Source: Rhodobacter sp. 24-YEA-8
GTDB lineage: Bacteria > Pseudomonadota > Alphaproteobacteria > Rhodobacterales > Rhodobacteraceae
Length of the DNA: 64,000 bases
Direction: 5' to 3'
Assembly: GCF_900105075.1 (NCBI RefSeq)
Contig: NZ_FNSK01000001.1
Span: forward strand, 316,001 to 380,000
The notes below the pieces were generated by a model, which was not told the origin of the DNA, did no database searches, and worked only from the letters and a program-made list of their open reading frames with translations. Shown in pieces: positions 1,599-30,056 of the stretch. Within the stretch, counting starts at the first letter, position 1, and each line of letters starts with the position of its first letter. The translations under genes were made by a program, and so were the position numbers.

Positions 1599-1706
1599 GC
1601 CTCCGGCGGGGATATTTAAGGACAGATGAAACACGGATATTTTCATCTGTCTCTAAATATCCCGGGGGAGAGGCCCTGAAAGGGCCGAGGGGGCAGGGCC
1701 CCCCTC
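1599..1706 (-). repeat. Composite palindromic intergenic repeat, copy 1
   Basis: Read on the minus strand this contains, in order, a G5C hairpin (GGGGGC with its complement, 1689-1703), a second hairpin (GGCCCT-GAA-AGGGCC, 1672-1686), and then a long inverted repeat: CCCGGGATATTTAGAGACAG at one end and CTGTCCTTAAATATCCCCG at the other, with the inner arms GATGAAA/TTTCATC closing the loop. The same layout occurs at 8008-8125 and 29925-30056 in the other orientation. It lies 8 bp past the stop codon of fghA. It has no coding capacity and may act as a terminator, an mRNA 3'-end element or a small mobile repeat. Confidence 0.85.
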
Positions 1707-1713
1707 TTTGTCT

Positions 1714-2544
1714 TCAGCCCCTCAGCGCGTCGACATGGAAGGAGATGTGATCTTCGATGAAGGAGGACACGAAGAAATAGCTGTGGTCATAGCCTTTCTG
1801 CATCCGGAAGGTGCCGCCCTGGCGGCGTTCTGTCATCGCGGCGGCAAGGGCTTCGGGTTTCAGCAGGTCGATGAACTGATCAGAGGTGCCCTGGTCGATC
1901 AGCACCGGCCCGTCAAAGCCACGTTTGCGCATCAGCGCCGAGGCGTCATGCGGCGCCCATGTGCTCTCATCCGCACCGAGATAAGCGGTGAACTGTTTGC
2001 GGCCCCAGTCTGACGCCATCGGGTTGCAGATCGGCGAAAAGGCCGAGACCGAGGAAAAGCGGCCCGGGAGGCTCATCGCGATGGTCAGCGCGCCATGGCC
2101 GCCCATCGAATGTCCGGTGATCGCCTGAAGGCCTTCCTCCAGCGGGAAGGCGCGGAATACGAGGTCCGGCAGCTCATCCGTCACGTAATCCCACATCCTG
2201 TAGTGTCTGGCCCAGGGGCCTTCGGTCGCATTCACATAGAAGCCGGCGCCCTGACCCAGATCATAGGCCTCATCATTGGCGACCGCCTCGCCGCGCGGGC
2301 TGGTATCGGGGAAGATCAGCGCGATGCCGGCCTCGGCTGCCCAGCGTTGCGCGCCGGCTTTCACCATCGCATTCTCATGCGTGCAGGTCAGGCCCGAGAG
2401 ATACCATAACAGCGGCACCGGCCCGTCTTCGGCCCCTTCCGGCAGGAAAAGGCCAAAGGTCATATCGGTCCGCGTGGTCTCCGAGGCATGGCTATAGACG
2501 CCCTGCACCCCTCCAAAGCAGCGGTTTTCCGAAATCGTCTTCAT
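1714..2544 (-). CDS. fghA: S-formylglutathione hydrolase
   Basis: A 276-residue serine esterase that hydrolyses S-formylglutathione to formate and glutathione, the second step of glutathione-dependent formaldehyde detoxification in the cytoplasm. Full-length match to the esterase D family: WYLSGLTCTHEN near residues 47-58, the nucleophile elbow GHSMGGHG (Ser146), and the likely acid and base Asp222 (GTSDQF) and His254 (GYDHSYFF). The start has a strong AAGGAGG ribosome site. The partner glutathione-dependent formaldehyde dehydrogenase is not in the window, so it must be encoded elsewhere. A copy of the palindromic repeat follows its stop codon. Confidence 0.95.
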   Translation of the reverse strand: MKTISENRCFGGVQGVYSHASETTRTDMTFGLFLPEGAEDGPVPLLWYLSGLTCTHENAMVKAGAQRWAAEAGIALIFPDTSPRGEAVANDEAYDLGQGAGFYVNATEGPWARHYRMWDYVTDELPDLVFRAFPLEEGLQAITGHSMGGHGALTIAMSLPGRFSSVSAFSPICNPMASDWGRKQFTAYLGADESTWAPHDASALMRKRGFDGPVLIDQGTSDQFIDLLKPEALAAAMTERRQGGTFRMQKGYDHSYFFVSSFIEDHISFHVDALRG

Positions 2545-2647
2545 GGTCTCTCCTCCTTCGTCTCCGGATGGGGCGGATCCCGGCCCCCTCCGGCTTTGGC
2601 GCCACCATGGAGTTATTGCCGCGCCGGAGCAAGGGGCGCGGGCGCAC

Positions 2648-3625
2648 CTAGCCGCCGCCGATCAGCACACCGGCGGCAAAGACCAGTGCGCCGCCCAGCA
2701 CCACCTGGAAGGCCGCGCGCAGGAATGGTGTCTCCATATAGCGGTTCTGGATCCAGGCGATGGCCCAGAGTTCGAAGAACACCACGATCATCGCAATGGA
2801 GGTGGCCAGGTGGAAATTCGGGATCAGATAAGGCAGGGCATGGCCAAGCCCGCCAAGGGCCGTCATCACCCCGGTCGCGATCCCGCGTTTGATCGGGCTG
2901 CCGCGCCCCGAGATCCGGCCATCATCGGCCGCGGCCTCGGTAAAGCCCATCGAGATCCCGGCGCCGACCGAGGCGGCCAGCCCCACCAGAAAGGTCGTAT
3001 GGGTGTTTTGCGTCGCGAAAGCCGTGGCGAAGATCGGCGCGAGGGTCGAGACCGAGCCATCCATCAGCCCGGCAAGGCCTGGCTGCACCCAGGTCAGGAT
3101 GAACTGGCGCTTTTCCGTCTGGCTCTCGGCCGCACTGGCATCGTCGCTCAGATGGGTTTCTGTCAGCTGATCGGCCGCCCGTTCATGGGCTGATTCCGCC
3201 TGGGCCAGATCGCCCAGCAATTTACGCGTTGCCGCATCGGTGATATGGGCGGCGGCGCTTTCATAAAAGGCGCCGGCCTCGCGTTCCATCTTGGCCGCCT
3301 CGGCCCGGATTACGTCCAGCGACATCTGCGCCTTCAGCCAGACCGGCCTGCGCATATGGAACCCTGCCACATGTTCGCGCCGGATCAGCGGGATCACCTG
3401 GCCGAACCGGCTTGTGAAAAGGTCGATCAGCGCGCGGCGATGGCCGTCTTCCTCAAGCGCCATCCCATCAAACACCGCCGCGCTGGCGGGGTATGCCTCC
3501 CGGAGATGGTCGGCGTAATGGCGGTAAATGCGGGCGTCATCTTCTTCTGACGAGATCGCCAGAGCGAGGATCTCTTTCTCCGAGAGGTCCCGGAGCCGGC
3601 GGCGGGATGAGAGCGCGGTCAACAT
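2648..3625 (-). CDS. mbfA: Membrane-bound ferritin-like iron exporter MbfA (ferritin + VIT1 domains)
   Basis: A 325-residue two-domain protein. Residues about 15-165 form a ferritin-like four-helix domain with paired carboxylates and histidines (SSEEDDARIY, ALEEDGHRR, AQAESAHERA), and about 170-325 is a VIT1/CCC1-type membrane domain (GLMDGSVSTLAPIFA, then GISMGFTEA and hydrophobic helices). This architecture is that of MbfA of Agrobacterium and Bradyrhizobium, which exports ferrous iron across the inner membrane and protects against iron and peroxide stress; there it is controlled by Irr. I do not see a clear iron-control box upstream. GGAGG lies 6 bp before the ATG. A TetR regulator is divergent, 182 bp away. 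Confidence 0.9.
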   Translation of the reverse strand: MLTALSSRRRLRDLSEKEILALAISSEEDDARIYRHYADHLREAYPASAAVFDGMALEEDGHRRALIDLFTSRFGQVIPLIRREHVAGFHMRRPVWLKAQMSLDVIRAEAAKMEREAGAFYESAAAHITDAATRKLLGDLAQAESAHERAADQLTETHLSDDASAAESQTEKRQFILTWVQPGLAGLMDGSVSTLAPIFATAFATQNTHTTFLVGLAASVGAGISMGFTEAAADDGRISGRGSPIKRGIATGVMTALGGLGHALPYLIPNFHLATSIAMIVVFFELWAIAWIQNRYMETPFLRAAFQVVLGGALVFAAGVLIGGG

Positions 3626-3807
3626 CTCGGACCTCCATCACAGCGGCATCACTTAAGCCCCCCGGCACAATCTTCGCGCGACAGGCTGCATAGCGGCCAG
3701 CTAGCCTGCTGCGCCGCCGGAAGGCCAGCCGGAAATTCCGGCCCGGGGGCGAATTGACAAGCCTCATGGTTGCCAATGGCCCGACCGGCGGCCATGATGC
3801 TGCTGTT

Positions 3808-4434
3808 ATGACATGTATTTCCGACTCCGAGGTCCGCAGAGGCCGAAAATTTGATCAGGTTCAGGAAGGCGCATTGCGTGTTTTCCTGCGCGATGGGTTT
3901 GAAGGCGCATCGGTCGATGAGATCGCCCGCGAGGCCGGGGTTTCCAAGGCCACGCTCTATTCCTATTTCCCAGACAAACGCGTGATGTTTGCCGAAGTGT
4001 TCAGCGTTGAATGCCAGCGCCAGGCCAGGTTTGCCGAGGCCGATATGACGCAGACCCCCCCGGCGCGCGAGTTTCTGGCCCAGTCCTCGCGGCGGGTGAT
4101 CCGCTTTGCGCTGTCGGATTTCGGGCGGCAGCTCTTCCGGCTTGTCGTCGGCGAAGTGTCGCGCTTTCCCGAACTTGCGCGGCAGTTCTATGTGAACGGG
4201 CCGGGGATCGTCAGGGGGCGGCTGGAGACCCGGCTGCGCGAACTGGCGGCACGCGGCGAGCTGGAAATCGCGGATTTCGACCTTGCGGTGGATCAGTTCG
4301 TGCAGCTGGCGAAATCGACGGTGCATGACCGGGCGATGCTGAACCTCGTCGATGACATTCAACCCGAAGAGATCGAGCGCGCGGTCGAGGCCACGGTGGA
4401 GATGTTCATGGCGCGCTACGGCGCGAAAGGCTGA
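3808..4434 (+). CDS. TetR/AcrR family transcriptional regulator
   Basis: About 208 residues. The N-terminal helix-turn-helix domain is clear: RVFLRDGFEGASVDEIA, then EAGVSKATLYSYFPDK and MFAEVF, as in TetR repressors. The C-terminal ligand domain resembles the AefR-like group (FGRQLFRLVVGEVSRFPELA). I place the start at 3808 (MTCISDSE), because the region between the possible earlier ATG at 3754 and here is unlike family N-termini; no strong ribosome site marks either. It is divergent from mbfA, so a role in iron or efflux control is possible, but that is inference from position only. Confidence 0.88.
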   Translation: MTCISDSEVRRGRKFDQVQEGALRVFLRDGFEGASVDEIAREAGVSKATLYSYFPDKRVMFAEVFSVECQRQARFAEADMTQTPPAREFLAQSSRRVIRFALSDFGRQLFRLVVGEVSRFPELARQFYVNGPGIVRGRLETRLRELAARGELEIADFDLAVDQFVQLAKSTVHDRAMLNLVDDIQPEEIERAVEATVEMFMARYGAKG

Positions 4435-4724
4435 GGCGCCTGTCCCCGGGTCGGGTACGCTTTCGGGTCATCAACCCTATGGCCTTAATTCAGCGCAGGG
4501 GACGGGCAGACAGAAGAGTGGCCCCTGACGAGATCGGTTCTGCCAGAGGGCAAAGGGGGCGGGTGGTCTCCGGGCGACCCATGGGCCGGTCATAATCGGC
4601 AGTCAGGCCCGCCCCGCCGCCGCTGGGCGCGGCGATCTGTCAGCCGCAAAGCGTCCGGGCCGCCATCACCTGAGTTACACAGGGTTGCGCTTACGCAGTA
4701 TTACAGGCCTGGCCTGGGTGCCGC

Positions 4725-5159
4725 TCAAGGTGACGGGATCCCGCCCGACTCAAGCAGCACATAATCCTGACCATTCGCATGGCCGTCACCGGCCTGCGTG
4801 AACTGATTTGCCCGATAGAACGCAAGTGCCGGGGTGTTCAATGCGACGCATTTGAGACGGTAGCGGGCAGTCGGCCAGCGAGGCAAGGCCCGGAGAAGGG
4901 CTGACCCGATGCCACGGCGTGGAAGGTCTGGGTCAACATGCAGGTGATGGATGAAACTGTCGGCTTCCCAGACCGAGATGAAACCCAGAATCCGACTGGC
5001 CTCCACAGCGACAAATTTCAACTCATCGACTGTCTGGAGGTCGAAATCCTCGGCACGCAGCGAGGACGGTTCCTCCCAGACGAAGGCCGAGCGTCTGGAT
5101 CGCAGGAACAGGTCTCGCAAGGCTGGCACGTCTCGGGCGTCGGCAATTCGCGTTATCAG
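4725..5159 (-). CDS. GNAT family N-acetyltransferase, apparent CTG start
   Basis: A compact GNAT acetyltransferase of about 144 residues: DLFLRSRRSAFVWEE near the start, the acetyl-CoA loop HVDPDLPRRGIGSALL, and the C-terminal LNTPALAFYRANQF. Such proteins transfer acetyl groups to small amines or proteins; the substrate is unknown. The first ATG/GTG/TTG available (GTG at 5129) would drop the usual first beta strand. Upstream the frame stays open and reads xITRIADARDV, exactly what GNAT N-termini look like, beginning with CTG at 5159 preceded by GGAAAGG. I therefore extend the gene to the CTG. It stands alone, with gaps of about 200-290 bp on both sides that hold nothing I recognise. Confidence 0.75.
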   Translation of the reverse strand: MITRIADARDVPALRDLFLRSRRSAFVWEEPSSLRAEDFDLQTVDELKFVAVEASRILGFISVWEADSFIHHLHVDPDLPRRGIGSALLRALPRWPTARYRLKCVALNTPALAFYRANQFTQAGDGHANGQDYVLLESGGIPSP

Positions 5160-5359
5160 GTTCGCACCCTTTCCTGGGCTGATGGCTGTGTCCGGTCCTT
5201 TGATCAGTCAATCCGACCAATGGCACCCGACCCCCGTTAAGGAGCCTGAAGACCCGCCCGGCAATTATGCACGGACGGCAGGCGTGCATCCGCTGCGGCC
5301 GAACAGCGAAACGGTCCTCAGGCATTGATATTCTGCAAAGAAATGGCCGGGCGCCTGGC

Positions 5360-6643
5360 TCAGCCATTCTCCTTGAGGATCTGCCCCGCGAGATAGAGTG
5401 AGCCGCAGATCAACACCCGTGCCTCAGGCGCCCGGGCGGCGATCTCGTCAAGTGCAGCCTGGACCGACCCTGCAACCGCGGCAGGGATCCCGGCGGTTGC
5501 AGCTGCATCGCGCGTCGCCGTGGCCGGCAGGGTGTTCGGCTCGCCCGGGATCTCGACCGCGATCAGGCGCCGCAGCGCGGGGGCAAGCGGGCGCATATAG
5601 CCCGTCACATCCTTGGTGTTGAGCATGCCGCAAATCGCGTAAGTATCGCGCGCGGGCATGCGGGCAAGCGTTGCCGCCACCGCATCGCCGCCTGCCGGAT
5701 TGTGACCCCCATCAAGCCAGAGCTCGATGCCCGGCGCCGATGCCGCAAGCGGGCCTTGCGTCAGGCGCTGCATCCGGGCGGGCCAGACGGCCTGGGTGAC
5801 GGCAGCCTCGCAGGCGGCTTCATCCCGGCCCAGAAGGCGCAGCGCGGCAATCGCAGCCCCGGCATTCTGGATCTGATGCGGCCCCGGCAGATTGGGCAAA
5901 GGCAGATCCAGCAGGCCGTTTTCGTCCTGATAGACCATGCGGCCGCGCTCTTCGGCGATCTGCCAGTGCTGGCCAAAAGCGAAGACCGGTGCGCCAAGAC
6001 GGGCGGCCCTGGCTTCGATCACCGCGAGCCCCGCCTCTTCCTGGGGGCCGACCACGACAGGCACACCGCGCTTGATGATCCCGGCTTTCTCGCCGGCGAT
6101 CTCGGGCAGCGTCTCGCCAAGATATTGCTGATGGTCGACCGAGACCGGCGTGATGATCGTGAGACGCGGCTGTTCCACGACATTGGTGGCGTCGAGCCGC
6201 CCGCCAAGCCCGACTTCGAGCAGCGTGAAATCCGCCTGCACCCGCGAAAAAGCGAGCATCGCCGCCACGGTGGTGATCTCGAAAAATGTGATCGGCTCGC
6301 CGCCATTGGCGGCAATGCATTCATCCAGCAGCGCCATCAGCGCCGGTTCCGAAATCAGCTCGCCGGCCAGCCGGATCCGCTCGTGGAACCGCGCCAGATG
6401 CGGCGAGGTATAGGCATGGACATTCGCACCCGAGGCCTCGAGCCCGGCGCGGATCATCGCCTGGGTGGAGCCCTTGCCATTGGTGCCCGCGAGATGGATC
6501 ACCGGCGGCAGGCTGCGCTCGGGGTGGCCGAGAGCCGTCAGCAGGCGATGTACGCGGTCAAGCGTCAGGTCGATGATCTTTGGATGAAAGCTCATCATCC
6601 GCTCAAGGATCGCATCCGATCCGGTGCTGTCTGGCATGGTCAT
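5360..6643 (-). CDS. folC: Dihydrofolate synthase / folylpolyglutamate synthase
   Basis: An ATP-dependent Mur-ligase-type enzyme of about 427 residues that adds glutamate to dihydropteroate and then to folates. Diagnostic motifs: VIHLAGTNGKGST (P-loop), YTSPHLARFHERI, the LLEVGLGGRLDATNV block, VDHQQYLG, and LWLDGGHNPAGG in the C-terminal domain. The start at 6643 (MTMPDSTG) lies one base after the TGA of the upstream ydhR gene, so accD, ydhR and folC form one leftward unit; an accD-folC link is also seen in enteric bacteria. Confidence 0.95.
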   Translation of the reverse strand: MTMPDSTGSDAILERMMSFHPKIIDLTLDRVHRLLTALGHPERSLPPVIHLAGTNGKGSTQAMIRAGLEASGANVHAYTSPHLARFHERIRLAGELISEPALMALLDECIAANGGEPITFFEITTVAAMLAFSRVQADFTLLEVGLGGRLDATNVVEQPRLTIITPVSVDHQQYLGETLPEIAGEKAGIIKRGVPVVVGPQEEAGLAVIEARAARLGAPVFAFGQHWQIAEERGRMVYQDENGLLDLPLPNLPGPHQIQNAGAAIAALRLLGRDEAACEAAVTQAVWPARMQRLTQGPLAASAPGIELWLDGGHNPAGGDAVAATLARMPARDTYAICGMLNTKDVTGYMRPLAPALRRLIAVEIPGEPNTLPATATRDAAATAGIPAAVAGSVQAALDEIAARAPEARVLICGSLYLAGQILKENG

Positions 6644-6644
6644 G

Positions 6645-6953
6645 TCAGAGCGGCGCGCGCGTGATGGCGGACAGCGCGTCATTCACCGCAAAAGTATGCG
6701 CGACAATGCCGGTGATGCCGAATGCCGCGAGCCGGGCCGAATGTTTCACGCGGTACGCCTCTGCCGCGTCAGCCGTGGCGAAGAGGTAGATCCCGCCTGC
6801 GCGGCTGTTGTCCTGGTTCTCGGTCCAGATCTTCCACAAAAGCCCCGGCTCTCCGGCGATATCCTGTGCCAGGTCCTCCATTGCCGCAGTCATCCCGGCC
6901 CCCCAGGGGCCCGTGAAGGGGAAATCGAACTGAAGAAGTGTGACAGACATCAT
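6645..6953 (-). CDS. ydhR: YdhR-family putative monooxygenase
   Basis: A protein of about 102 residues closely resembling the E. coli YdhR family: TLLQFDFPFTGPWGAGM, then EPGLLWKIWTENQ, AGGIYLF, and VKHSARLAAFGI. The family has a dimeric alpha+beta barrel fold like ActVA-Orf6 monooxygenases that act on aromatic compounds without a cofactor; the in vivo substrate is unknown. The start at 6953 (two successive ATGs, 6953 and 6950) is preceded by AGGAAAGG. It sits between accD (22 bp upstream) and folC (1 bp downstream), an insertion into a primary-metabolism operon. Confidence 0.85.
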   Translation of the reverse strand: MMSVTLLQFDFPFTGPWGAGMTAAMEDLAQDIAGEPGLLWKIWTENQDNSRAGGIYLFATADAAEAYRVKHSARLAAFGITGIVAHTFAVNDALSAITRAPL

Positions 6954-6975
6954 GAATGCCTTTCCTGGCTCAGCT

Positions 6976-7902
6976 TTAGGGCGTTTCGGGGGCCGGAGCA
7001 CTGGTCGCGACCGGGGCCGGCTCGGGGGCGGCAAGATCGGCGCGGATCGCCGGGGGCTGGCCGGTGAGCATGCGCAGGATGGTGATCAGCTCTTCCCGCA
7101 TGGATTTGCGATGGGTCACGCGGTCAAGCATGCCGTGATCCAGCAGATATTCGGCGCGCTGGAACCCCTCGGGGAGCTTTTCGCGGATGGTCTGTTCAAT
7201 AACGCGCGGCCCGGCAAAGCAGATCAGTGCATTGGGTTCGGCGATCTGCACATCACCCAGCATCGCGTAAGACGCCGTGACGCCGCCGGTGGTCGGATGG
7301 GTGAGGACAACGATATAGGGCAGCCCTGCCTCTTTCAGCATCTGGATCGCCACGGTCGTGCGCGGCATCTGCATAAGGGCAAGGATCCCCTCCTGCATCC
7401 GTGCGCCGCCGGCGGCGGAAAAGACCACGAAGGGCTTTTTCATCTGAACCGCGCGCTCGGCACCGGCGATGAAGGCATTGCCGACATACATCGACAGCGA
7501 TCCGCCGATAAAGGCGAAATCCTGCGCGGCGGCGACGATGGGGGTGCGGCCGATCTCGCCCTCGGCCACCAGCATCGCCTCTTTCTCGCCGGTCGATTTC
7601 TGCGCGGCTTTCAGGCGGTCGGGATATTTCTTCTGATCGCGGAAATGCAGCGGATCGGCGATGGGTTCGGGAACCTTCACCTCGGTGAAAATACCACCGT
7701 CGAACAGTGCGGTGAAGCGATCCCGCGGGCTGATCGCCATATGGTGATCACAATTCGAGCACACATTGAGATTGGCCTCGAGCTCACGGTGGAACAGCAT
7801 CGTTCCGCATTCCGGACATTTGGTCCACAGGTTCTCGGGCACCTCGCGCCGCGAGAAGAGCGAGTTGATCTTCGGGCGGACGTAATTGGTGATCCAGTTC
7901 AT
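6976..7902 (-). CDS. accD: Acetyl-CoA carboxylase carboxyltransferase subunit beta
   Basis: About 308 residues, the beta subunit of the carboxyltransferase that makes malonyl-CoA with AccA. The start [15 protein letters not shown] at 7902 is typical and is preceded by GGTGGAAAGG. A four-cysteine zinc ribbon follows (CPECG and CSNCD, near residues 28-50), then the crotonase-like core with [18 protein letters not shown] and [15 protein letters not shown]. The C-terminus ends in a Pro/Ala-rich tail ([15 protein letters not shown]). Its transcription appears to continue into ydhR and folC. Confidence 0.96.
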
Positions 7903-8007
7903 ATGCAGGCCTTTCCACCGGGGACGTTTCGGGGGTCTGAGGTTTGGTCTCCGAGATAAGGCCACGGCGCCCTGAATGCAATGCAAAGGCCTGTGGCCGG
8001 CGGTGAA

Positions 8008-8125
8008 GAGGGGGCCAGCCCCCTCGCGGCTTTGCCGCTCACCCCCGGGATATTTAGAGACAGATGAAATTGGTAAGTGAGAGTGGTTTTCAGCTGTCCT
8101 TAAATATCCCCGCCGGAGGCATCCG
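8008..8125 (+). repeat. Composite palindromic intergenic repeat, copy 2
   Basis: The order on the plus strand is: a hairpin GAGGGGG/CCCCCTC (8008-8025), a hairpin GCGGC-TTT-GCCGC (8026-8038), then CCCCCGGGATATTTAGAGAC with AGATGAAA, a loop, and CAGCTGTCCTTAAATATCCC followed by CGCCGGAGGCATCCG. The inner arm is degenerate here (TTTTCAGCTG rather than TTTCATCTG). It lies in the accD-recR gap, about 25 bp past the recR stop codon. Confidence 0.85.
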
Positions 8126-8148
8126 CAGCCGGCAAGAGGCCGCGGGGT

Positions 8149-8754
8149 TCAGAGTTTGCGCCGCGCCCGCAAGGCGGCTCCGAGCGTGCCATCGTCGAGA
8201 TGGTCAAGCTCGCCACCGACCGGCACACCCTGGGCAAGGGTCGTGATCTGCGCTGTTGTCACCGTCAGGGCATCGGCGATATAATGCGCGGTGGTTTGTG
8301 CATCAATTGTGGCGCTCAGAGCGAGGATCACTTCGGTGATATTTTCATCCGAGACCCGTGCGACGAGGCGCGGAATTCCGAGTTCCTCGGGGCCAAGCCC
8401 GTCAAGCGCCGAAAGCGTGCCGCCGAGAACCTGGTAGCGGCCGCGAAACACGCCGGCGCGTTCCAGGGCCCAGAGATCGGCGACATCTTCGACAACGCAA
8501 AGTTCTCCCGTCGCGCGGGCGGCATCCTGACAGATCGGGCAGATGTCTGCGGTCGAGATATTGCCGCAACTCTGGCAGTCGCGGGCGTTCAGCGCCACTT
8601 CGGCCAGCGATTGCGCCAGTGGGGCCATGACCTGAGCGCGGCGTTTCAGCATGGCCAGCACCGCACGCCGGGCCGAGCGCGGGCCAAGGCCCGGCAACCG
8701 CGACATCAGCTGGATCAGTGTTTCGATACCGGTCTCGTCAGAAGTGCGCGTCAC
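8149..8754 (-). CDS. recR: Recombination protein RecR
   Basis: A 201-residue RecR, part of the RecFOR system that loads RecA at single-stranded gaps. It has the N-terminal helix-hairpin-helix ([18 protein letters not shown]), the four-cysteine zinc finger ([16 protein letters not shown]), and the TOPRIM domain ([14 protein letters not shown]). The C-terminal Walker-B-like segment includes [16 protein letters not shown]. The start is a GTG at 8754. It is the last gene of a leftward dnaX-ebfC-recR unit, a very common bacterial order. Confidence 0.95.
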
Positions 8755-8767
8755 TGGGGCGCCGGCA

Positions 8768-9121: not shown

Positions 9122-9176
9122 CGGTTTCTTCCTTTGTGTTTACCGCTGACTGCTGCGCCCGGGGCTGTGTGCAGGG

Positions 9177-10961: not shown

Positions 10962-11029
10962 CTGGCCTCCTGTGGCTCTGGCTCAATCTAAGCACCGGCG
11001 TCGCTTTCGGCAACCGGCTGCCGCTGGCG

Positions 11030-12043: not shown

Positions 12044-12202
12044 TCCTGATCCTGGCATGTGACGTCCGGCGATTGTGACGCAGCGTCTGTCTTGCGGGTG
12101 AGGGGCATTTGTTATGCTTTTGCGCATATTGGACCTCGACAGATCAGACAAGACCGTTCCCGGGCCCCGGCCCCGGCGCAGCGGCCCGCCGGAGACCAGA
12201 AT

Positions 12203-13897: not shown

Positions 13898-13900
13898 GCC

Positions 13901-21503: not shown

Positions 21504-21515
21504 GCCGGAGCCGCC

Positions 21516-22547: not shown

Positions 22548-22564
22548 TCACCCGGGCGCGGGGC

Positions 22565-23176: not shown

Positions 23177-23666
23177 GCCCGGAATCCTTCAGGATAAACG
23201 TGGCAATTGCCTCTGCGTCATTCAGGTCGAGCACCGGCACGCTCAGCCCGTTCAGCGCGGCGTCTGAGGCCACCGCACGCACCAGCGGATCGCCGGGCTG
23301 GATCATCGGGCGGTCGGCCACGCCCGCGCGCCAGACTTCGATCTTCGGATGGGTATCGCGCTTGTACCCTTCGACCAGCACCAGATCGACCGGGGCGAGG
23401 CGGGCCAGCACCTCTGTCAGTTCCGGTTCGGGGCCGCGATGTTCGCGCAGGATGGCGAAGCGTTTCGCAGAGGCCAGCACGACTTCCTGCGCGCCGGCTT
23501 CGCGGTGGCGCCAGGTGTCCTTGCCGGGCTGGTCGAGATCGACATCATGATGCACATGTTTGACCGTCGAGACCGACAATCCACGCTGTGTCAGGGTGGC
23601 GACCAGGCGCTCCATCAGCGTGGTTTTGCCGCTGTTTTGCCAGCCGATCACACCATAGATCTTCAT
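23166..23666 (-). CDS. mobB: Molybdopterin-guanine dinucleotide biosynthesis adaptor MobB
   Basis: A 166-residue P-loop GTP-binding protein that works with MobA in forming the bis-MGD cofactor. It begins MKIYGVIGWQNSGKTTLMER (Walker A), then GLSVSTVKHVHHDVDLDQPG and DLVLVEGYKRDTHPKIEVWR, all typical of MobB. Its ATG overlaps the mobA stop (ATGA, 4 bp). Confidence 0.95.
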   Translation of the reverse strand: MKIYGVIGWQNSGKTTLMERLVATLTQRGLSVSTVKHVHHDVDLDQPGKDTWRHREAGAQEVVLASAKRFAILREHRGPEPELTEVLARLAPVDLVLVEGYKRDTHPKIEVWRAGVADRPMIQPGDPLVRAVASDAALNGLSVPVLDLNDAEAIATFILKDSGLAP

Positions 23667-24259
23667 ACGGGGCGGCCTTCACTGCGGATATTGGCGCGGG
23701 CGAGGTCTTCGGGCGTGTTGAGATTGTCGAAGGCACCCGTATCGGGGAAATCGACGGGGCAGGCGCCATGGTGCGCCGCGAAATCGGCGATTTTCGGTTT
23801 CGCGCCCGAGGCGAGGAAACCGGCCAGCGCATCCGCGAGTGTGACCGGCCAGATTGCTGTCGCATTGTGGTCGCGCCCACCGGCCCGGGCAAATCCCGGC
23901 CCCGGCAGCGCGGTGGCAAGGCGTGTGATCAGATTATCCGGCAGGAAAGGCGCATCAACCGGGACAGAGATCAGCGCGGTGGCGCCTGCCGTCTTTGCCG
24001 CGCGCAACCCGGCAAGGATCCCGGCCAGCGGCCCGAGTGACGTTTCATCGGGCAGGACCTCAAGCCCGGTAAAGGCAAAGCGCGCCGCATCGCCATTGGC
24101 CGAAATCAGCAGGCGACCGGCCTGGGGCCGCAGCCGCGCGATCACATGGGCGATCAGCGGCTGACCGGCGAGCGTCAGAAGCGCCTTATCCGCCCCGCCC
24201 ATCCGGCGCCCCTGTCCACCTGCGAGAATGACGGCAAAGAGGCTCACGCGCGAATGCAC
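23663..24259 (-). CDS. mobA: Molybdenum cofactor guanylyltransferase
   Basis: A 198-residue nucleotidyltransferase that attaches GMP to molybdopterin. The N-terminal LFAVILAGGQGRRMGGADK is the nucleotide-binding signature; LISVPVDAPFLP holds the metal-binding aspartate, and the C-terminal FDNLNTPEDLARA is the usual MobA ending. The start codon is a GTG at 24259. It is translationally coupled to mobB. Confidence 0.94.
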   Translation of the reverse strand: MHSRVSLFAVILAGGQGRRMGGADKALLTLAGQPLIAHVIARLRPQAGRLLISANGDAARFAFTGLEVLPDETSLGPLAGILAGLRAAKTAGATALISVPVDAPFLPDNLITRLATALPGPGFARAGGRDHNATAIWPVTLADALAGFLASGAKPKIADFAAHHGACPVDFPDTGAFDNLNTPEDLARANIRSEGRPV

Positions 24260-24295
24260 CTTATGCGGAAATGGAACTTTGCCGGTGCAGGCGGA

Positions 24296-24922
24296 TCAAT
24301 TGACCCGTCTGCCCTTTTTGTCGACGAGGATCACGCCATGCCCGGCACCGGGATTGTCGTTTTCTTCGGTTACGATACGGGTGGTGACGCCCGGCAGCTC
24401 TGCGAAGGACGCATCCAGCCTTTTCGGGAAGTAAGTCGAGGACACGCCCTCAAAGCCCGGAACCGAGCGCAGGATACCGGCGATCGAGCTTGCACAATGG
24501 GCCTTGGCCACTGCGCCATTCGACATGGCTTTTTGCAAGATCGCCTCGGCCACGGCGGGCGAAACCTGCAGCTTGCGCTCGATGACGTGGAACTTCTCTG
24601 TTTCAGAGTCGCGCGCATGGTAATCGAGGTAGAAATTCACCATCCGGTCGGTCATGCCGAAATGCACGTCATTGCGTTCGGGCGCGGCATCATGATGCCA
24701 GGTCCCGGCCGGATCAAACAGCACACGTTGCGAAGCATTGATCAGCAAAGCCGAATGCGATCCCGATCCGGTGCGGTCATTGATGGTGGTCAGAAGCGTG
24801 ATTTCGGTCGGCGGTCCGGCGACATAGCTGGCACGTGAGACCTGGTCGTCAGGCGCCCAGACCGGTTCTGCACAGGCCGAAAGCGTCAGCAGCACCGCGA
24901 GCGCGGCAAGAAGGCGATACAT
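24296..24922 (-). CDS. Lipoprotein with possible permuted NlpC/P60-like peptidase fold
   Basis: A 208-residue protein with a lipoprotein signal (MYRLLAALAVLLTLSAC, lipobox LSAC with Cys17). The mature part contains GSGSHSALLINASQRVLFDP, where a histidine precedes a hydrophobic strand, and later KAHCASSIAGILRSVPG, where a cysteine starts a helix. This His-before-Cys order is that of circularly permuted NlpC/P60 (YiiX/YaeF-like) proteins, but that assignment is inference; there is no database support here. A strong GGGAGAGG ribosome site precedes the ATG. It lies 36 bp upstream of mobA in the same direction. Confidence 0.75.
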   Translation of the reverse strand: MYRLLAALAVLLTLSACAEPVWAPDDQVSRASYVAGPPTEITLLTTINDRTGSGSHSALLINASQRVLFDPAGTWHHDAAPERNDVHFGMTDRMVNFYLDYHARDSETEKFHVIERKLQVSPAVAEAILQKAMSNGAVAKAHCASSIAGILRSVPGFEGVSSTYFPKRLDASFAELPGVTTRIVTEENDNPGAGHGVILVDKKGRRVN

Positions 24923-24979
24923 GTAACCTCTCCCTGCCCTGTGCCGGCCCGCAGGGGGGCCGGTTTCAGGGCGGCAAAA

Positions 24980-25129
24980 TCACGTCCGGGCGAGGCCGAG
25001 GAAAACGAGAACCACGACGCAGACAACGACAGTCCAGGTCGCGACCCTGATGAAACCGGCAAAGGTTTTTTCCTGAGTGCGGATATCCATGCTGCCATGC
25101 GTGTGATCGCCATGCTGATGATCGGCCAT
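24980..25129 (-). CDS. aa3-type cytochrome c oxidase subunit IV
   Basis: A 49-residue protein found by direct translation: a His-rich start (MADHQHGDHTHGSMDIR), then TQEKTFAGFIRVATWTVVV leading into one membrane helix that ends in LVFLGLART. This is the small one-helix subunit IV of aa3-type oxidases of Rhodobacter and Paracoccus. It is not essential for catalysis in the known enzymes. The other oxidase subunits are not in the window. It is separated by 57 bp from the downstream lipoprotein gene; GAATGAAGA before the ATG is a weak ribosome site. Confidence 0.9.
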   Translation of the reverse strand: MADHQHGDHTHGSMDIRTQEKTFAGFIRVATWTVVVCVVVLVFLGLART

Positions 25130-25274
25130 TCTTCATTCCCCGGGAACAGATGCTTTTCCGCCTGTTAGCCGATTCAGCGCCCGCTGTCACCCATCGGGCG
25201 CGGCCCGGCATGCACGAAGATGCCATGGTGATGTATCTTTCCCGCGCCAGCGCCCAGGTCTGCGGGGGAGGTGC

Positions 25275-25778
25275 TCAGTCGCCCGCGACCGGCCAGACCG
25301 ATGCATCCCCGGATTCGCCGCCATCCCATCCCTGCAAGAGCCGAAAGCCGATACGGACCGGCGGCGCTTCGGGGGCAAGCTTCGGCACCGCGCGCAGCAA
25401 AACCGAAAGCTGGCTGACATGCTGCACCATCTGGGTGCGGATGCCATCTTCATCCCGGCCAAAGAAGGTGAGCAGATCCGGGGCCGACCAGCCCAGCCCC
25501 TCGATCCGGAGCACCCCGGCAGCGCTGCCGGTAAAGCCCATGGCGATCTCCTGGCTCTGATCGAGCTGGCTTTCGAACTGGCGGATATAGATCACCAGAC
25601 GCTCGCAGGCCGATTCGGCCGGGGTCTTTTGCGCCGCTGCCTTCCTGGTCGTGGTCTTCGGTGCCGCTGCCGCAGGGCTGCCGGGAACAATGGCCGCAGC
25701 CTTCGCCGTCATTTTGCGTTTCGCGGGGGCTGCGGTGCTGCCAGCGGCGGCGGCTTTGGTCAGGGTTTTCTCGGTCAT
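25275..25778 (-). CDS. DUF6173-like protein with Lys/Ala-rich N-terminus
   Basis: A 167-residue protein in two parts. Residues 1-50 are low-complexity and rich in Ala, Lys, Thr and Pro (TKAAAAGSTAAPAKRK, KTTTRKAAAQK), like histone-H1 or phasin-type tails. Residues about 55-150 form a compact domain: ESACERLVIYIRQFESQLD, EIAMGFTGSAAGVLRIEGL, FFGRDEDGIRTQMVQHVSQL and RIGFRLLQ. I recall this as DUF6173, an uncharacterised alphaproteobacterial family. Its ATG overlaps the TGA of the MBL hydrolase gene (ATGA), so it is translationally coupled to it. Confidence 0.78.
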   Translation of the reverse strand: MTEKTLTKAAAAGSTAAPAKRKMTAKAAAIVPGSPAAAAPKTTTRKAAAQKTPAESACERLVIYIRQFESQLDQSQEIAMGFTGSAAGVLRIEGLGWSAPDLLTFFGRDEDGIRTQMVQHVSQLSVLLRAVPKLAPEAPPVRIGFRLLQGWDGGESGDASVWPVAGD

Positions 25779-26806
25779 GTCTTTTGCCAGAGCCATGCCC
25801 CATCGGGGCCGGGGGAACGGGTGATCTCGCCCCGGTGCAGCAGGTGGTTCAGATGCGCCACCGCCTCGACCAGCGCGAGGCCAAGCTCGCTTTCGCCGAT
25901 CCTGCGGCGGAAGAGCATCGGGAAGCAACCCACTGCCGTATTGGGCACGGTGAGGAAATCGCGCAGCCGGTCCAGGGCCGAGAGGTGGTTTTCCACCATC
26001 TGACGCAGCCGGAACGGCAGGCCGGTGAAAGGGAGCTTATGGCCTGGCAGCACCAGCTGATCCTCGCGCGCGAAAGCGCTGAGGCGGGTGCAGCTTTCCA
26101 GCCATTCCCCAAGTGGGTCGGCCTCGGGTTCCGCCGGATAAACGCCGATATTGGCAGAGATCCCGGGCAAAAGCTGATCGCCGCCAAGAACGAGGCCGTC
26201 TGTCCAGAGCGTCGCATGCGCGGGGGCATGGCCATGACCGATGCGGATCTGCCAGTCGCGCCCGCCCAGCCGCAGGGTCTGGCCCTCGCTGATCCGGGTA
26301 AAGCCCAAAGGCAGCGGCGCCATACAATCCGACGAGTTGAACGGGCGCTCATTCATCCGCCGCTCCAGATCGGAGGGCAGCATGCCTGCGCGTTTCCAGA
26401 AGGCGACCGTCTCGGGAGAGGGGCGTTCTTCGGCTGTGTTAAACAGCATCCTTGCATAAAGCCAGGCGGTGCGGGTGATCAGAAGGGCTGCGCCCTGTTC
26501 GATGAACCAGCCCGCCATACCGATATGATCCGGGTGATGATGGGTGACGACCAGCCGCTTTACCGGCCTGCCGGCCAGCGGCCCGGCCAACAAAGCCTGC
26601 CAGGCCGCAAGGGCGCGGCGCGATCTGATGCCAGTATCGATCAGCGTCCAGCCATCGCCCTCGTCGATCGCATAGACATTCACATGGTCCAGCGCCCAGG
26701 GCAGCGAAAGCCGCATCCATAGAACACCCGGTGCGACCTCGGTCGCGGAACCGGCTGCGGGTGCATCGGGGAAGGGGTGGCGGATCTCACTCATGGGGTG
26801 TTTCAT
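25775..26806 (-). CDS. MBL-fold metallo-hydrolase
   Basis: About 343 residues. The metallo-beta-lactamase signature THHHPDHIGMAGW lies near residue 90, with the other metal ligands in GHGHAPAHATLW, LVLGGDQLLPG and LVLPGHKLPF. The C-terminal part is a helical winged-helix-like domain seen in glyoxalase-II and LACTB2-type hydrolases. The substrate is unknown. The start is taken at 26806 (MKHPMSEIRH), though 26794 is as likely. It is followed directly by the coupled DUF6173 gene. Confidence 0.9.
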   Translation of the reverse strand: MKHPMSEIRHPFPDAPAAGSATEVAPGVLWMRLSLPWALDHVNVYAIDEGDGWTLIDTGIRSRRALAAWQALLAGPLAGRPVKRLVVTHHHPDHIGMAGWFIEQGAALLITRTAWLYARMLFNTAEERPSPETVAFWKRAGMLPSDLERRMNERPFNSSDCMAPLPLGFTRISEGQTLRLGGRDWQIRIGHGHAPAHATLWTDGLVLGGDQLLPGISANIGVYPAEPEADPLGEWLESCTRLSAFAREDQLVLPGHKLPFTGLPFRLRQMVENHLSALDRLRDFLTVPNTAVGCFPMLFRRRIGESELGLALVEAVAHLNHLLHRGEITRSPGPDGAWLWQKT

Positions 26807-27155
26807 GCCGGGAACGCGCGGCGCGGGCAAGCTGATGTTCATGGGAGCGGGTTCGGGAGCAGACGATATCGCGGATGCGCCTGCCTTCGGGCTTTCGCAG
26901 TGGCCTCATATCGGGGGTTTGTGGGATTGGACCAAATTCGGCACTTTTTTCGGGGGGCGCTGGTGATTGCTTTCCTGTTGTGGCGCTGACCTGGCAGGAC
27001 AGGTCGCGCGCCGGGGGCACCAGGGTGGAATGCGGGGCTCACATCGCGGGGCAGTCGCACGGGGGAACCTCAGGATAAAACCCGGGTAAAGCCTGCGGTA
27101 ACCTTTGTTAACGCAGGCGCTGGACAAAGCCGGTGGCATCGGCCAGGCCCGTCTG
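26807..27155. other. Divergent intergenic region, MBL hydrolase / nuclease
   Basis: A gap of about 350 bp that should hold both promoters. A frame of 43 codons from the ATG at 26835 (MFMGAGSGADDIADAPAF) stays open but has no ribosome site, and I do not call it a gene. A T6G6 tract sits near 26946-26958. GTTAAC occurs at 27108-27113. No other element is recognised. Confidence 0.5.
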
Positions 27156-27815
27156 ATGTCCGGTCTCATTCTACAGCTTGTCTTCGTAACTTCTGTTGCC
27201 GCCGCGCCGTCGATCTCGGGCGCGCCCCAGGTCAGTGATGGGGATACGCTGCGGTTCGGACCGGTTGTGGTACGGCTTCATGGCATCGACGCCCCGGAAT
27301 CCGGCCAAAGCTGTGCCAGTGCCGGTGGAGGCAGCTGGCCCTGCGGTCTGGCGGCGACGAGGCGGCTGGAGGCACTGATCGCCGGCAACACCGTGACCTG
27401 CGAGGTGCTGGCCCGCGACCGCTATGGAAGGGTGGTTGCGCGCTGCGCGGCCGGCGGCGAGGATCTCGGCGCTGCGATGGTCTCGGATGGCCTCGCCTGG
27501 GCCTATATCGCCTATTCCGATGCCTATCTGCCGCAGCAGACCCTTGCGCAGGCAGCCGGTCGCGGCATCTGGGCCGCACCGTCACAACCCGCCTGGGAGT
27601 TTCGCGCCGCGCGCTGGATGGCGGCTGATCAGGATACGCCGCTTGAGGGCTGCCCGATCAAGGGCAATATCTCGAAATCGGGCGAGCGGATCTACCACCT
27701 GCCCTGGTCACCGGCCTATGCAAGGACGGTGATCCGCGAAGATCAGGGCGAGCGCTGGTTCTGCGACGAGGCCGAGGCCCGGGCCGCAGGCTGGCGCCCG
27801 GCGCGCGGGAAATAG
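27156..27815 (+). CDS. Secreted thermonuclease-family (SNase-like) protein
   Basis: A 219-residue protein with a short signal peptide (MSGLILQLVFVTSVAAA) and an SNase/OB-fold core: VSDGDTLRFG, VVVRLHGIDAPESGQSC, VTCEVLARDRYGRVVARC and DGLAWAYIAYSDAY. The catalytic Arg and Asp of staphylococcal nuclease correspond to the RLHGID and RYGR blocks. The C-terminal module GCPIKGNISKSGERIYHLP with WFCDEAEARAAGWRPA recurs in bacterial nucleases. It probably acts on nucleic acid outside the inner membrane. Confidence 0.88.
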   Translation: MSGLILQLVFVTSVAAAPSISGAPQVSDGDTLRFGPVVVRLHGIDAPESGQSCASAGGGSWPCGLAATRRLEALIAGNTVTCEVLARDRYGRVVARCAAGGEDLGAAMVSDGLAWAYIAYSDAYLPQQTLAQAAGRGIWAAPSQPAWEFRAARWMAADQDTPLEGCPIKGNISKSGERIYHLPWSPAYARTVIREDQGERWFCDEAEARAAGWRPARGK

Positions 27816-27826
27816 CGCCGGGGCGC

Positions 27827-27847
27827 GCAGACCTGGTACAGGTCTGC
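27827..27847. terminator. Hairpin between convergent nuclease and parE genes
   Basis: A perfect stem GCAGACCTG-GTA-CAGGTCTGC (9 bp, 3-nt loop), 12 bp after the nuclease stop and 8 bp before the parE stop. There is no T-run. The form matches the short-loop hairpins found after tsaC and ribE, so it is probably a shared 3'-end element or a Rho-associated barrier, not a classical terminator. Confidence 0.7.
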
Positions 27848-27855
27848 TGCCAGCC

Positions 27856-29832
27856 TCAGATATCGAGCTCGTCGGTATTGGCGAAACGGGCCTTTTCCTG
27901 AATGAACTGAAAGCGCAGCTCCGGCTTTTTGCCCATCAGGTCATTGACCAGGGTTTTCGTCGATTCGCGCTCTTCCTCATTGATCGAGACCTGGATCAGC
28001 TTGCGCGTTGCCGGGTTCATCGTGGTGTCTTTGAGGTCCTTGGCATCCATCTCGCCCAGCCCCTTGAAACGCTGCACATCGATCTTGCCGCGCCCGCCCA
28101 GACCCTTGGCCAGCCATTCCTCTTTCTCGGCATCATTCGAGACATAGAGCCGCTTCGGCCCCTGGGTCAGGCGGTAAAGCGGCGGGCAGGCGAGGTAGAG
28201 ATGCCCTTTCAGAATCAGCTGCGGCATCTGTTCATAGAAGAATGTCATCAGCAGCGAGGCGATATGGGCGCCATCCACATCGGCGTCGGTCATGATGATG
28301 ATCTTGTCATAGCGCAGATCGTCGATGCGGAAGCGATCTTTCATGCCAACGCCAAGCGCTTCGCAAATGTCGCGGATCTCGGCATTGTCCGAGAGTTTGC
28401 TCGCGGCAGCCCCCAGCACATTGAGCACCTTGCCGCGCAAGGGCAGCAGCGCCTGGAATTTGCGGTCGCGCGCACCCTTGCCGCTGCCGCCGGCGGAATC
28501 GCCCTCGACGAGGAACAGTTCGGTGCCGGAGCGGTTCGAGGCAGAACAATCGACCAGCTTGCCCGGGAGGCGTAGTCGCTTGGTCGCCGTCTTGCGCTGC
28601 GTTTCCTTTTCGGCGCGGCGCTTCAGCCGTTCCTCAGCGCGCTGCACCAGGAAATCAAGGATCGCGCCGGCAGATTTCGGATCACTGGCCAGCCAGGTGT
28701 CGAAATGGTCGCGGACGGCGTTTTCCACCCATTTCGCCGCCTCTTCTGTCGCCAGCCGGTCCTTGGTCTGGCCGACAAATTGCGGTTCCCGGATAAAGAC
28801 CGAGATCAGCGCGCAGCCGCCGGTCAGCATATCCTCGCGGGTGATCTGATCGGCTTTGCGGTTCTTGACCCGCTCGCCATATGCGCGGATGCCTTTCAGG
28901 GTCGCGGCCCAGAAACCGGCCTCATGGGTGCCGCCCTCAGGGGTCGGAACCGTGTTGGTGTAGGACGAGATGAAACCGTCGCGCATCGGCGTCCAGTTGA
29001 TCGCCCATTCGACCGAGCCGGGCACGCCGAACTTTTCCCTGAAGCTGACTTTGCCCGCGAAAGGCCGCTCGGCATAGGTCTGATCGGATTGCAGCTGTTC
29101 TGCCAGATATTCACCAAGGCCACCGGGGTAATGGAAGGTCGCTTCCAGCGGCATATCGCCGTCCGGAATCGCGGATTTCCAGCGGATCTCAACGCCGGAA
29201 TAAAGATAGGCTTTGGAACGGACCATCTTCATCAGCCGCGCCGGGCGGAAGGTCTGATGGCCGAAAATCTCGGCATCGGGGTGGAAGATCACCGTGGTGC
29301 CGCGCCGGTTCGGCGCCGGGCCAATTTTTGCGACCGGTCCCCGGGGCTTGCCACGCGAGAATTCCTGGACGTAGAGTTCTTTGTTCCGCGCCACCTCGAC
29401 CCGCATATGGTCGGACAGTGCATTGACCACAGACGAGCCAACGCCGTTCAGCCCGCCCGAGGTTTCATAGGCGTCGCCATTGAACTTGCCGCCGGCATGC
29501 AGCGTGCAGAGGATCACCTCCAGCGCGGATTTGTCGGGGAATTTCGGATGCGGGTCGACGGGAATCCCGCGCCCGTTATCCCTGATCGAAACCGAGCCAT
29601 CGGCCAACAGCTCGACCTCGATCCGGTTGGCGTGGCCGGCGACCGCCTCGTCCATCGAATTGTCGAGAATCTCGGCGGCAAGATGGTGATAGGCGCGCTC
29701 GTCAATGCCGCCGATATACATGCCGGGCCGCATCCGCACCGCTTCAAGCGGTTCAAGAACCTCAATCGAGGAGGCGTCATAGGTCTGCTGGTTCGGCGCG
29801 GCGAGAAGATCGCCGGAATCATTCGGGGCCAT
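27856..29832 (-). CDS. parE: DNA topoisomerase IV subunit B
   Basis: A 658-residue type IIA topoisomerase ATPase subunit that with ParC separates linked chromosomes. It has the N-terminal EPLEAVRMRPGMYIGG, the GHKL ATPase motifs (LDNSMDEAVAG, IRDNGRGIPVD, GGLNGVGSSVVNALS), and the TOPRIM domain (LVEGDSAGGSGKGARDR, DADVDGAHIASLL). Its length and insert pattern are ParE rather than GyrB (GyrB is usually about 800 residues). Confidence 0.94.
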   Translation of the reverse strand: MAPNDSGDLLAAPNQQTYDASSIEVLEPLEAVRMRPGMYIGGIDERAYHHLAAEILDNSMDEAVAGHANRIEVELLADGSVSIRDNGRGIPVDPHPKFPDKSALEVILCTLHAGGKFNGDAYETSGGLNGVGSSVVNALSDHMRVEVARNKELYVQEFSRGKPRGPVAKIGPAPNRRGTTVIFHPDAEIFGHQTFRPARLMKMVRSKAYLYSGVEIRWKSAIPDGDMPLEATFHYPGGLGEYLAEQLQSDQTYAERPFAGKVSFREKFGVPGSVEWAINWTPMRDGFISSYTNTVPTPEGGTHEAGFWAATLKGIRAYGERVKNRKADQITREDMLTGGCALISVFIREPQFVGQTKDRLATEEAAKWVENAVRDHFDTWLASDPKSAGAILDFLVQRAEERLKRRAEKETQRKTATKRLRLPGKLVDCSASNRSGTELFLVEGDSAGGSGKGARDRKFQALLPLRGKVLNVLGAAASKLSDNAEIRDICEALGVGMKDRFRIDDLRYDKIIIMTDADVDGAHIASLLMTFFYEQMPQLILKGHLYLACPPLYRLTQGPKRLYVSNDAEKEEWLAKGLGGRGKIDVQRFKGLGEMDAKDLKDTTMNPATRKLIQVSINEEERESTKTLVNDLMGKKPELRFQFIQEKARFANTDELDI

Positions 29833-29924
29833 GCGCTGCTCTTATGGTTTGTAGCACAGCATTAGACCACCCGGAGGGGGAGGCGCGCAAGATCCAGGGG
29901 GGATTTTCCTGTGGACGCGCGCAA

Positions 29925-30056
29925 GGGGGGCGCTGCCCCCGTCTCCTGGCGGAGACTCCCCCGGGATATTTAGAGACAGATGAAAAGATCTTCTGCTGAT
30001 TTCATCTGTCCTTAAATATCCCCGCCGGAGGCATCCGGCCCCGTAACGGGGCCGGA
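29925..30056 (+). repeat. Composite palindromic intergenic repeat, copy 3
   Basis: The most complete copy. Order on the plus strand: hairpin GGGGGC-GCT-GCCCCC (29926-29940), hairpin GTCTCC-TGGC-GGAGAC (29941-29956), the long inverted repeat CCCGGGATATTTAGAGACAG ATGAAA ... TTTCATCTGTCC TTAAATATCC (29960-30020), CGCCGGAGGCATC, and a final hairpin TCCGGCCCCG-TAA-CGGGGCCGGA (30034-30056). It lies about 10 bp past the LLM oxidoreductase stop codon. Confidence 0.88.

Follow-up and report, generated by a model that had tools for sequence, protein, structure and literature searches.

A gene-end repeat of one-sided units with a species-specific word in the Rhodobacteraceae

ERIC/RIME-type palindromes are intergenic, about 100–130 bp long and built on a long inverted repeat, and by description they can be likened to the element reported here. 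We came upon this element, a palindromic repeat lying just past gene 3' ends, in a window of 64,000 nt (the whole stretch of DNA analyzed) from Rhodobacter sp. 24-YEA-8, contig NZ_FNSK01000001.1, positions 316,001 to 380,000; the genome is referred to as G000. Here we describe a family-wide gene-end repeat of one-sided units which occupies mostly shared sites, carries a word that is concerted across the genome, and exchanges this word together with its flanks.

Two groups of described repeats come closest. REPINs are inverted doublets of repetitive extragenic palindromic (REP) sequences with a variable spacer, and their singlets are less conserved than the doublets (PMC3116915). REPs lie mostly between tandem and convergent genes (PMC3733652), and REP-type repeats are also the subject of the RepRanger paper (PMC12306157). 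The DNA uptake sequences (DUS) of Neisseriaceae have species dialects, form inverted pairs near gene ends, and number 2,245–5,918 copies in the genomes named by the source (PMC3630211). Our literature search found no description of the gene-end repeat; subscription literature was mostly outside its reach, and a description could have been missed.

The one-sided unit, its distribution and its words

The basic unit is one-sided and is not the palindrome. It consists of a GC-rich head, then GGGATATTT, 3 nt and the word, which is GACAGATGAAA in G000. In more general terms, the GC head is followed by GGATATTT, 3 (rarely 4) free nt and a species word of about 10–11 nt. Type A heads comprise hairpins 1 and 2 (or hairpin 1 alone) and then CCCCCGG, and type B heads read GCCTCCGGCGG. 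Units are found alone or as inverted pairs, and an inverted pair forms a long hairpin. Heads collected without regard to the word in 405 kb fetched from G000 were paired in 66 cases and unpaired in 33; the pairs counted here are the 38 that the pattern caught among 44 model-matched places, and units with a decayed arm were counted as unpaired or missed. The word (at most one mismatch) was present at 30 of the 33 unpaired heads and a mirrored arm at 2, and the palindrome is thus two units facing each other. In this small sample, and for the word only, the match was exact at 28 of 33 unpaired heads versus 62 of 66 pair units. A home-made typing rule makes two of the 38 pairs A-A and one B-B; all others are A-B, in either orientation. 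A third arrangement, B heads pointing outward back to back a few tens of nt apart, was seen at L474, L475, L482, L491 and L496 and in G099 (C5:103845 and 103883). The pair at C1:1931449 of G000 holds an ordinary-looking terminator (GCCCTCAACAAAAGGGC and then a T-run) within its loop.

An earlier note on this DNA had taken paired change in the second hairpin as a sign of selected structure. The helices do covary: over 92 distinct rows aligned to the model, drawn from this and other genera, three helices gave a covariation score of 0.368 compared with 0.035–0.075 for slid structures. The score is an upper estimate, since the structure guided the alignment and the same palindrome enters some rows in its reverse-strand reading. 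In the same rows, 95.6% of cells pair and 28 of 34 pairs show double-sided change. The word, however, is equally kept in units without a partner arm and switches there too, so that a sequence is kept and not only a helix. Conservation of structure alone is ruled out by the presence of the word at unpaired heads, by its switching in solos, and by similar exactness in paired and unpaired units.

Where the earlier note counted three copies, the source genome, which belongs to the Pseudogemmobacter group, has 44 model-matched places plus one-sided units, which rules out a local three-copy repeat. G000 comprises 5.01 Mb in 7 contigs, of which contig C1 makes up 68%. A BLAST search with copy 2 returned 58 rows in G000, and a covariance model (R1) built from ten of its own copies returned 79 rows, equivalent to 44 places, all on C1. 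The head pattern CSSCSGGGATATTT occurs 101 times (reversed control 0), with 99 on C1 among the 100 places listed, and the word GACAGATGAAA 107 times (reversed control 0). None of the outcomes named in the note as refuting it came about. Relatives carry the element as well, as shown by a covariance-model search of the kind that the note proposed: R1 matched 28 of 60 genomes with G000 counted, namely 13/13 of the genus, 15/23 of other genera of the family and 0/24 of other families. Across 198 family genomes (one per genus) the head is present in 141, with a maximum of 168 exact heads; the reversed control gave a single hit in each of 3 genomes. A scan for the ATG-word hairpin returned 68 stretches, many from Pseudogemmobacter and others from Rhodobacter, Gemmobacter, Fuscovulum and Xinfangfangia, as well as from metagenome-assembled genomes labelled Pseudorhodobacter, Cypionkella, Rubellimicrobium or Rhodobacteraceae. 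A known Rfam RNA is ruled out, since no family matched at or above its gathering cut-off in the window; on 7 loci, with E up to 0.1, only three microRNA models appeared, all below their cut-offs. Among IMG/VR stretches, several contigs of about 14 kb contain a B head. On L469, the one contig examined, GTA_TIM, capsid and terminase genes mark a gene transfer agent cluster, and the unit is close to the 3' end of an open reading frame upstream or downstream of the terminase gene.

Words differ by species, with nearly one word per genome. Counts of GACAGATGAA and GACAGAAAAT in the 13 genomes of the genus (reversed controls 0–6) were 135/12 in G000, 142/7 in G004, 86/4 in G008, 68/6 in G006, 46/9 in G003, 45/12 in G011, 40/3 in G009 and 40/12 in G002, compared with 9/50 in G007, 6/128 in G005 and 12/140 in G001; G010 had 5/1, and G012, with 108/44, is mixed between both words. 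In each of six of the 198 family genomes, 6–7 stretches from the first listed places were read. The word was AACAAAAGAA in 6/6 units of G210, AGCAAAAGATG in 7/7 of G129, CGACAATGAA in 5/7 of G213 (exact matches), GACACATGAT or AACACATAA in 5 and 3 of 8 units of G099, AGCGAAAAGAA in 4/6 of G223 and CCAAAGAA in 8/10 of G164. Mirrored heads within 90 nt (a loose rule) were found in 8/10 for G164, 2/7 for G213 and 2/6 for G210, and in none for G129, G099 and G223, indicating that solos prevail in these genomes.

Exchange of the word and persistence of sites

We matched elements across genomes by their flanking sequence. The word in pairs is ATG in 38/38 of G000, AAA in 31/31 fetched from G001, ATG in 27 and AAA in 9 of G012, and ATG in 6/6 of G004. 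Between G000 and G001, identity over 28 sites is 0.89 in the flank, 0.91 in outer A, 0.84 in outer B and 0.92 in the stem, versus 0.31 in the arm and 0.32 in the loop. Arms and loop have been replaced at all 28 comparable sites, while scaffold and flanks stay. The same holds within G012: at 27 sites sharing the word with G000, flank, arm and loop identities are 0.95, 0.97 and 0.85, whereas at 6 sites with the other word they are 0.90, 0.37 and 0.34. Arm identities are partly lowered because the second word resembles the first with AAA inserted (GACAGA+AAA+TGA). The other-word cores of G012, compared with the G001 core at the same site (5 sites), are 0.92–0.98 identical in four cases and 0.73 in the fifth. 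Orthologous solos had switched word between G000 and G001 in 3/3 cases and kept it in G012 in 2/2. The core of G004 is at least 0.80 identical to that of G000 at 7/18 sites, with arms counted and the baseline therefore high. That related species have swapped the word at the same gene ends points to a factor that reads it. By eye, the loop is an exact or near reverse complement between G000 and G012 at G000 C1:1186458 and 2109401.

Local ancestry was read from the sequence around the word. At 400–800 nt from the elements in one trio (G000, G012, G001; 27 sites), G012 resembles G001 (0.952) more closely than G000 (0.941). Within 60 nt of ATG-word sites this flips to 0.957 with G000 and 0.880 with G001. 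Informative sites at ATG-word elements, counted outward as G000-like to G001-like, run 253:52 (within 60 nt), 252:113, 352:424, 447:658 (400–800 nt) and 382:603; AAA-word sites in G012 show no flip, with 12:60 within 60 nt. Sites with a G000-like majority within 150 nt comprise 20 of 22 with the ATG word (one tie, one not) and 0 of 5 with the AAA word. Element-bearing gaps of G012 at ATG-word sites score 387:112 versus 91:86 in element-free gaps of the same loci (p=2e-10). The ancestry of G012 thus follows the word near elements, and the word and its neighboring sequence tend to move together. This is consistent with homologous exchange of tracts that are short (one to a few hundred nt) and ragged. 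With G004 as outgroup, polarized sites at 40–150 nt from 9 ATG-word sites divide into 68 derived in G001, 61 shared by G000 and G012, and 28 others; the about equal counts of 68 and 61 do not favor an import of the G001 word into G001 alone.

Most sites persist in close relatives, and elements do come or go, slowly. For the G000 pairs, 34 regions were located in G012 and 34/34 have an element, including one that the pattern missed. A known hit was the reason for fetching 31 of them; 3 were chosen by synteny (element in 3/3), and 4 of the 38 G000 pairs were left out. In the G001 regions, likewise fetched from known hits, a pair is present in 28/30; of the other two, one has a single arm and the other a longer replacement. 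When elements were paired by flanks, 4 of G012 and 3 of G001 reached beyond the fetched DNA, and 2 of G012, 2 of G001 and 1 of G004 lacked a close partner in G000; most of these were placed by the reverse comparison. Two G001 elements (L251, L266) and one rearranged G000 site (450431) were left out of the pairing. In the reverse direction, 30 of 36 G012 pairs have a partner in G000. Two have no element there, one of them being present in G001, and at the other four the G000 core is deleted, broken by a 2.5-kb insert, adjoined by a 3.6-kb insert, or at the end of the fetched stretch. The idea that no orthologous site is empty is thus rejected (2 absent, 1 core deletion, 1 break by insert). Inserts of 1.3–3.7 kb in G000 interrupt or flank elements that are intact in G012 or G001 (C1 ~1822660-1825200, 2020930-2022220 and 2263580-2267200), and the last has a second B head at its far end, as if units were joints for cargo.

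Gene 3' ends and the copies in the window

Placement relative to genes, called in G000 with a home-made codon-usage caller, is not random, in line with the earlier note. The 38 pairs lie in 22 tandem, 14 convergent and 2 divergent gaps, compared with 56, 8 and 37 among 101 element-free gaps of at least 100 nt in the same segments (convergent to divergent 14:2 versus 8:37, p=1.2e-6). In tandem gaps the element edge stands closer to the upstream stop (median 20 nt) than to the next start (median 101 nt), and neither orientation is preferred (A end first in 10, B end first in 12), which agrees with the bidirectional character suggested by the note. A gene 3' end flanks 27/33 unpaired heads on one or both sides; 4 are inside called genes and 2 between two starts. 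Such a 3' end also flanks 15 of 16 units in loci of other genera; the remaining unit is inside a called gene. Some solos overlap or abut a start codon called by the same home-made caller (G000 C1:1312868, 1499110, 948289 and 3102412), and AAGGACAGATGAAA resembles a ribosome site plus ATG.

The note had also proposed a terminator or 3'-end module. Its placement and structural parts stood, and terminator-like hairpins are enriched at the G-run end; the role itself remains putative. A terminator-like hairpin with a T-run is present at the G-run end of 16/66 pair units versus 7/140 random intergenic points (p ~2e-4), and over the word of unpaired heads, on the opposite strand, in 8/33 versus 4/140 controls (p ~2e-4).

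All three copies in the window were recovered in place, in the order of G-run hairpin, second hairpin and long inverted repeat, with the conserved ends CCCGGGATATTTAGAGAC and GTCCTTAAATATCCCCG in 3/3 and with the second hairpin paired despite different bases. Folding z-scores are -6.8, -4.6 and -7.3 for copies 1, 2 and 3, and 0 of 200 shuffles were as good for each copy. Allowing up to 3 mismatches, GCCTCCGGCGGGGATATTT has 3 matches in the window, all exact, where 0.03 are expected.

Copy 1 (1591..1708, including a few nt extra on each side, minus strand) lies just past fghA (stop 1714-1716, minus strand). Folding places its hairpin 1 (G-run) at 1687..1706, hairpin 2 (GGCCCT/AGGGCC) at 1672..1686 and the long hairpin of two inverted units at 1609..1663, all on the minus strand. 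Pattern matching places the B head GCCTCCGGCGGGGATATTT at 1599..1617 (plus), and word matching GACAGATGAAA at 1621..1631 (plus) on the B side and 1641..1651 (minus) on the A side. Copy 2 (8002..8128 with the same margin, plus strand) lies between accD and recR, whose stop ends at 8149. Its folded parts, on the plus strand, are hairpin 1 (G-run, 8008..8025), hairpin 2 (GCGGC/GCCGC, 8026..8038) and the long hairpin (8047..8110); the A-side word matches at 8059..8069 (plus), the B-side word reads GACAGCTGAAA, with one mismatch, at 8088..8098 (minus), and the B head matches its pattern at 8102..8120 (minus). Copy 3 (29918..30040, again with a few nt extra on each side, plus strand) lies between a parE-like gene and the gene called LLM oxidoreductase (stop ends 30066). 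It folds on the plus strand into hairpin 1 (G-run, 29926..29940), hairpin 2 (GTCTCC/GGAGAC, 29941..29956) and the long hairpin (29963..30022), with word matches at 29975..29985 (plus) on the A side and 30000..30010 (minus) on the B side, and the B head, by pattern, at 30014..30032 (minus). Beside the B side of copy 3, folding and the sequence reading show a locus-specific GC hairpin followed by CGTCTTTTC (30034..30056, plus).

As the note had it, the copies are close to stop codons (gaps of about 7, 23 and 9 nt, using its element edges, all within its figure of about 25 bp), and their orientation relative to the upstream gene differs: the G-run end is nearest the upstream stop in copy 1 and the other end in copies 2 and 3. 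All three are between co-directional genes. The neighbors of copy 1 (fghA and a YaiI/YqxD protein) and of copy 2 (recR and accD) score over their NCBIfam cut-offs. The gene called LLM oxidoreductase matches a luciferase-like monooxygenase model only below its cut-off (83.7 versus 412.9 bits), and the parE-like gene is below its cut-off (719.8 versus 723.35 bits).

Neighbor genes at these sites differ in several genus genomes. At the fghA site a pair is present in 3 of 13 genomes (G000, G012, G001), decayed in G004, at most a remnant in G006 and absent from 8. Two tandem TTCGAA-centred palindromes occupy the site in four genomes without the element (L072, L075, L076 and L079, corresponding to G005, G003, G002 and G011), an ordinary-looking terminator does so in G007, and the remaining element-free genomes hold other sequence. 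The recR site has a pair in 6 of 13 genomes (G000, G012, G001, G006, G005, G007), remnants in G010, G008 and G004, and none in 4. At the LLM site, 8 of 11 readable genomes have a pair (G000, G001, G012, G004, G005, G007, G010 and, as B-B, G002); it is decayed in G008, and G006 and G009 hold other sequence.

Possible explanations and comparison with known systems

The explanation we favor, tentatively and from sequence comparison, is a bidirectional 3'-end module whose word would be read by one factor and exchanged by homologous import. The hairpins may serve as a bidirectional 3'-end or terminator element, acting in termination or in 3'-end protection, and the word may be the recognition sequence of one trans-acting DNA- or RNA-binding factor per genome. 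When the preferred word of a lineage changes, sites would be converted one by one as short tracts surrounding the element are homologously imported from lineages already carrying that word; selection, or a bias of the recognizing machinery, could be the driving force. Several observations weigh against this explanation. Many members of the genus have no element at the three window sites, and G000 lacks 2 of the 36 elements of G012. The G000-like signal extends in part to gaps without an element in the same loci (91:86), and the tracts are not clean: at ATG-word sites the first contradicting informative position comes at a median distance of 43 nt from the core. The three-way test concerns one genome trio and 27 sites, and the outgroup test 9 and 4 sites. 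The terminator signal, by a strict home-made rule, is present in about a quarter of units, and no reader of the word was found, Y1_Tnp being the only candidate sought.

A broader proposal, which we consider rather doubtful, is a gene-end dialect system of the Rhodobacteraceae, in which one word per genome, tied to the GGATATTT head, would convert orthologous sites by short-tract import, with G012 in the middle of a switch. The word would then be an uptake signal, or the target of a nuclease specific to it, through whose action mismatched sites are converted to the matching allele of a donor.

Unlikely, in our view, is an uptake-like signal proper, in which the word favors DNA of its own dialect group in uptake or recombination, so that words spread by drive and dialects isolate species. 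Species dialects and inverted pairs near gene ends, as in the account of Neisseriaceae DUS (PMC3630211), speak for it, as do the import-like tracts around the element, the location of 99 of the 100 listed heads on C1, and a BLAST search with one whole copy that found no match in plasmid and phage collections. Genomes of the family have at most 168 exact heads, however, versus 2,245–5,918 DUS in the genomes named in that account (PMC3630211), and the word goes with the GGATATTT head and is rarely inside called genes (4/33 unpaired heads).

Even less likely is a plain terminator family in which the word is only the U-rich side or the stem of the terminator, its variation being due to drift and to ectopic gene conversion between copies. 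The excess of terminator-like hairpins at the G-run end and over the word would suit it, as would the other palindromes and the ordinary-looking terminator at the fghA site of other species. Drift explains neither the nearly single word per genome nor its switch in solos, and ectopic conversion does not explain the change of unique flanks.

Least probable of all is a REPIN- or MITE-like (miniature inverted-repeat transposable element) mobile element, in which the inverted pair replicates via a transposase acting in trans and solos are remains. Its inverted doublets with variable spacer share the architecture of REPINs (PMC3116915), REPs too are mostly between tandem and convergent genes (PMC3733652), loops are alike between some G000 sites (15/630 loop pairs score at least 9, versus 0.16% of shuffled pairs), and the two elements absent from G000 (one shared by G012 and G001), with one more core-deleted, led us to weight this rival up and the favored explanation down. 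Against it stand the sharing of most sites, the change of unique flanks along with the core, unpaired words as conserved as paired ones, unlike REPIN singlets (PMC3116915), no obvious target duplication, by eye, at the two absent sites, and the lack of a Y1_Tnp match in 13/13 genus genomes (control positive in 5/14; other transposase families were not searched). Likeness above chance also exists between loops of G000 and those of G001 (0.72%), and loop likeness is therefore no proof of recent copying. Mobility, as suggested by the earlier note, may underlie the gain and loss of some sites; no transposase of the Y1_Tnp family was found.

Short repeats at gene ends are usually dismissed as dead mobile DNA or as terminators. 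In this repeat it is the word that changes, at many places and along with local ancestry, while most sites remain in place, and the repeat thus offers a natural experiment on a genome-wide recognition sequence changing its language. In a family that also produces gene transfer agents, the word could serve as a marker of the partners in DNA exchange, and it raises for the bench the question of what reads it.

Compared with intrinsic (bidirectional) terminators, the repeat likewise has GC hairpins directly behind stop codons, in some cases with a T-rich run after them. To our knowledge, a species-specific word with a conserved head is not part of the intrinsic-terminator model. With the REPINs and REPs of Pseudomonas and enterics it shares short intergenic repeats as solos and inverted doublets, a variable spacer, a position near 3' ends and a lineage-specific sequence, and it has the defining inverted doublet of a short repeated sequence. 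It differs in the missing association with Y1_Tnp (13/13 genus genomes without a match), in singlets that, in a small sample, are not less conserved than doublets (exact word 28/33 versus 62/66), in a word that is replaced while most sites stay, and in a long conserved head with two extra covarying hairpins. The GTAG/CGTC tags of REPINs were not noticed in it, though no systematic search was made. With the DUS of Neisseriaceae it shares species words, inverted pairs at gene ends and dialect differences between relatives, and it has a species dialect of a short repeated word. Unlike DUS, which have thousands of copies, it is more than 10 times rarer (G000 has 101 heads and 107 words, and none of 198 family genomes exceeds 168 exact heads), its word is tied to the GGATATTT head, and it is mostly intergenic. 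On present tests, the best reading is that the gene-end repeat stands between REP-type repeats and dialect words and is a member of neither.

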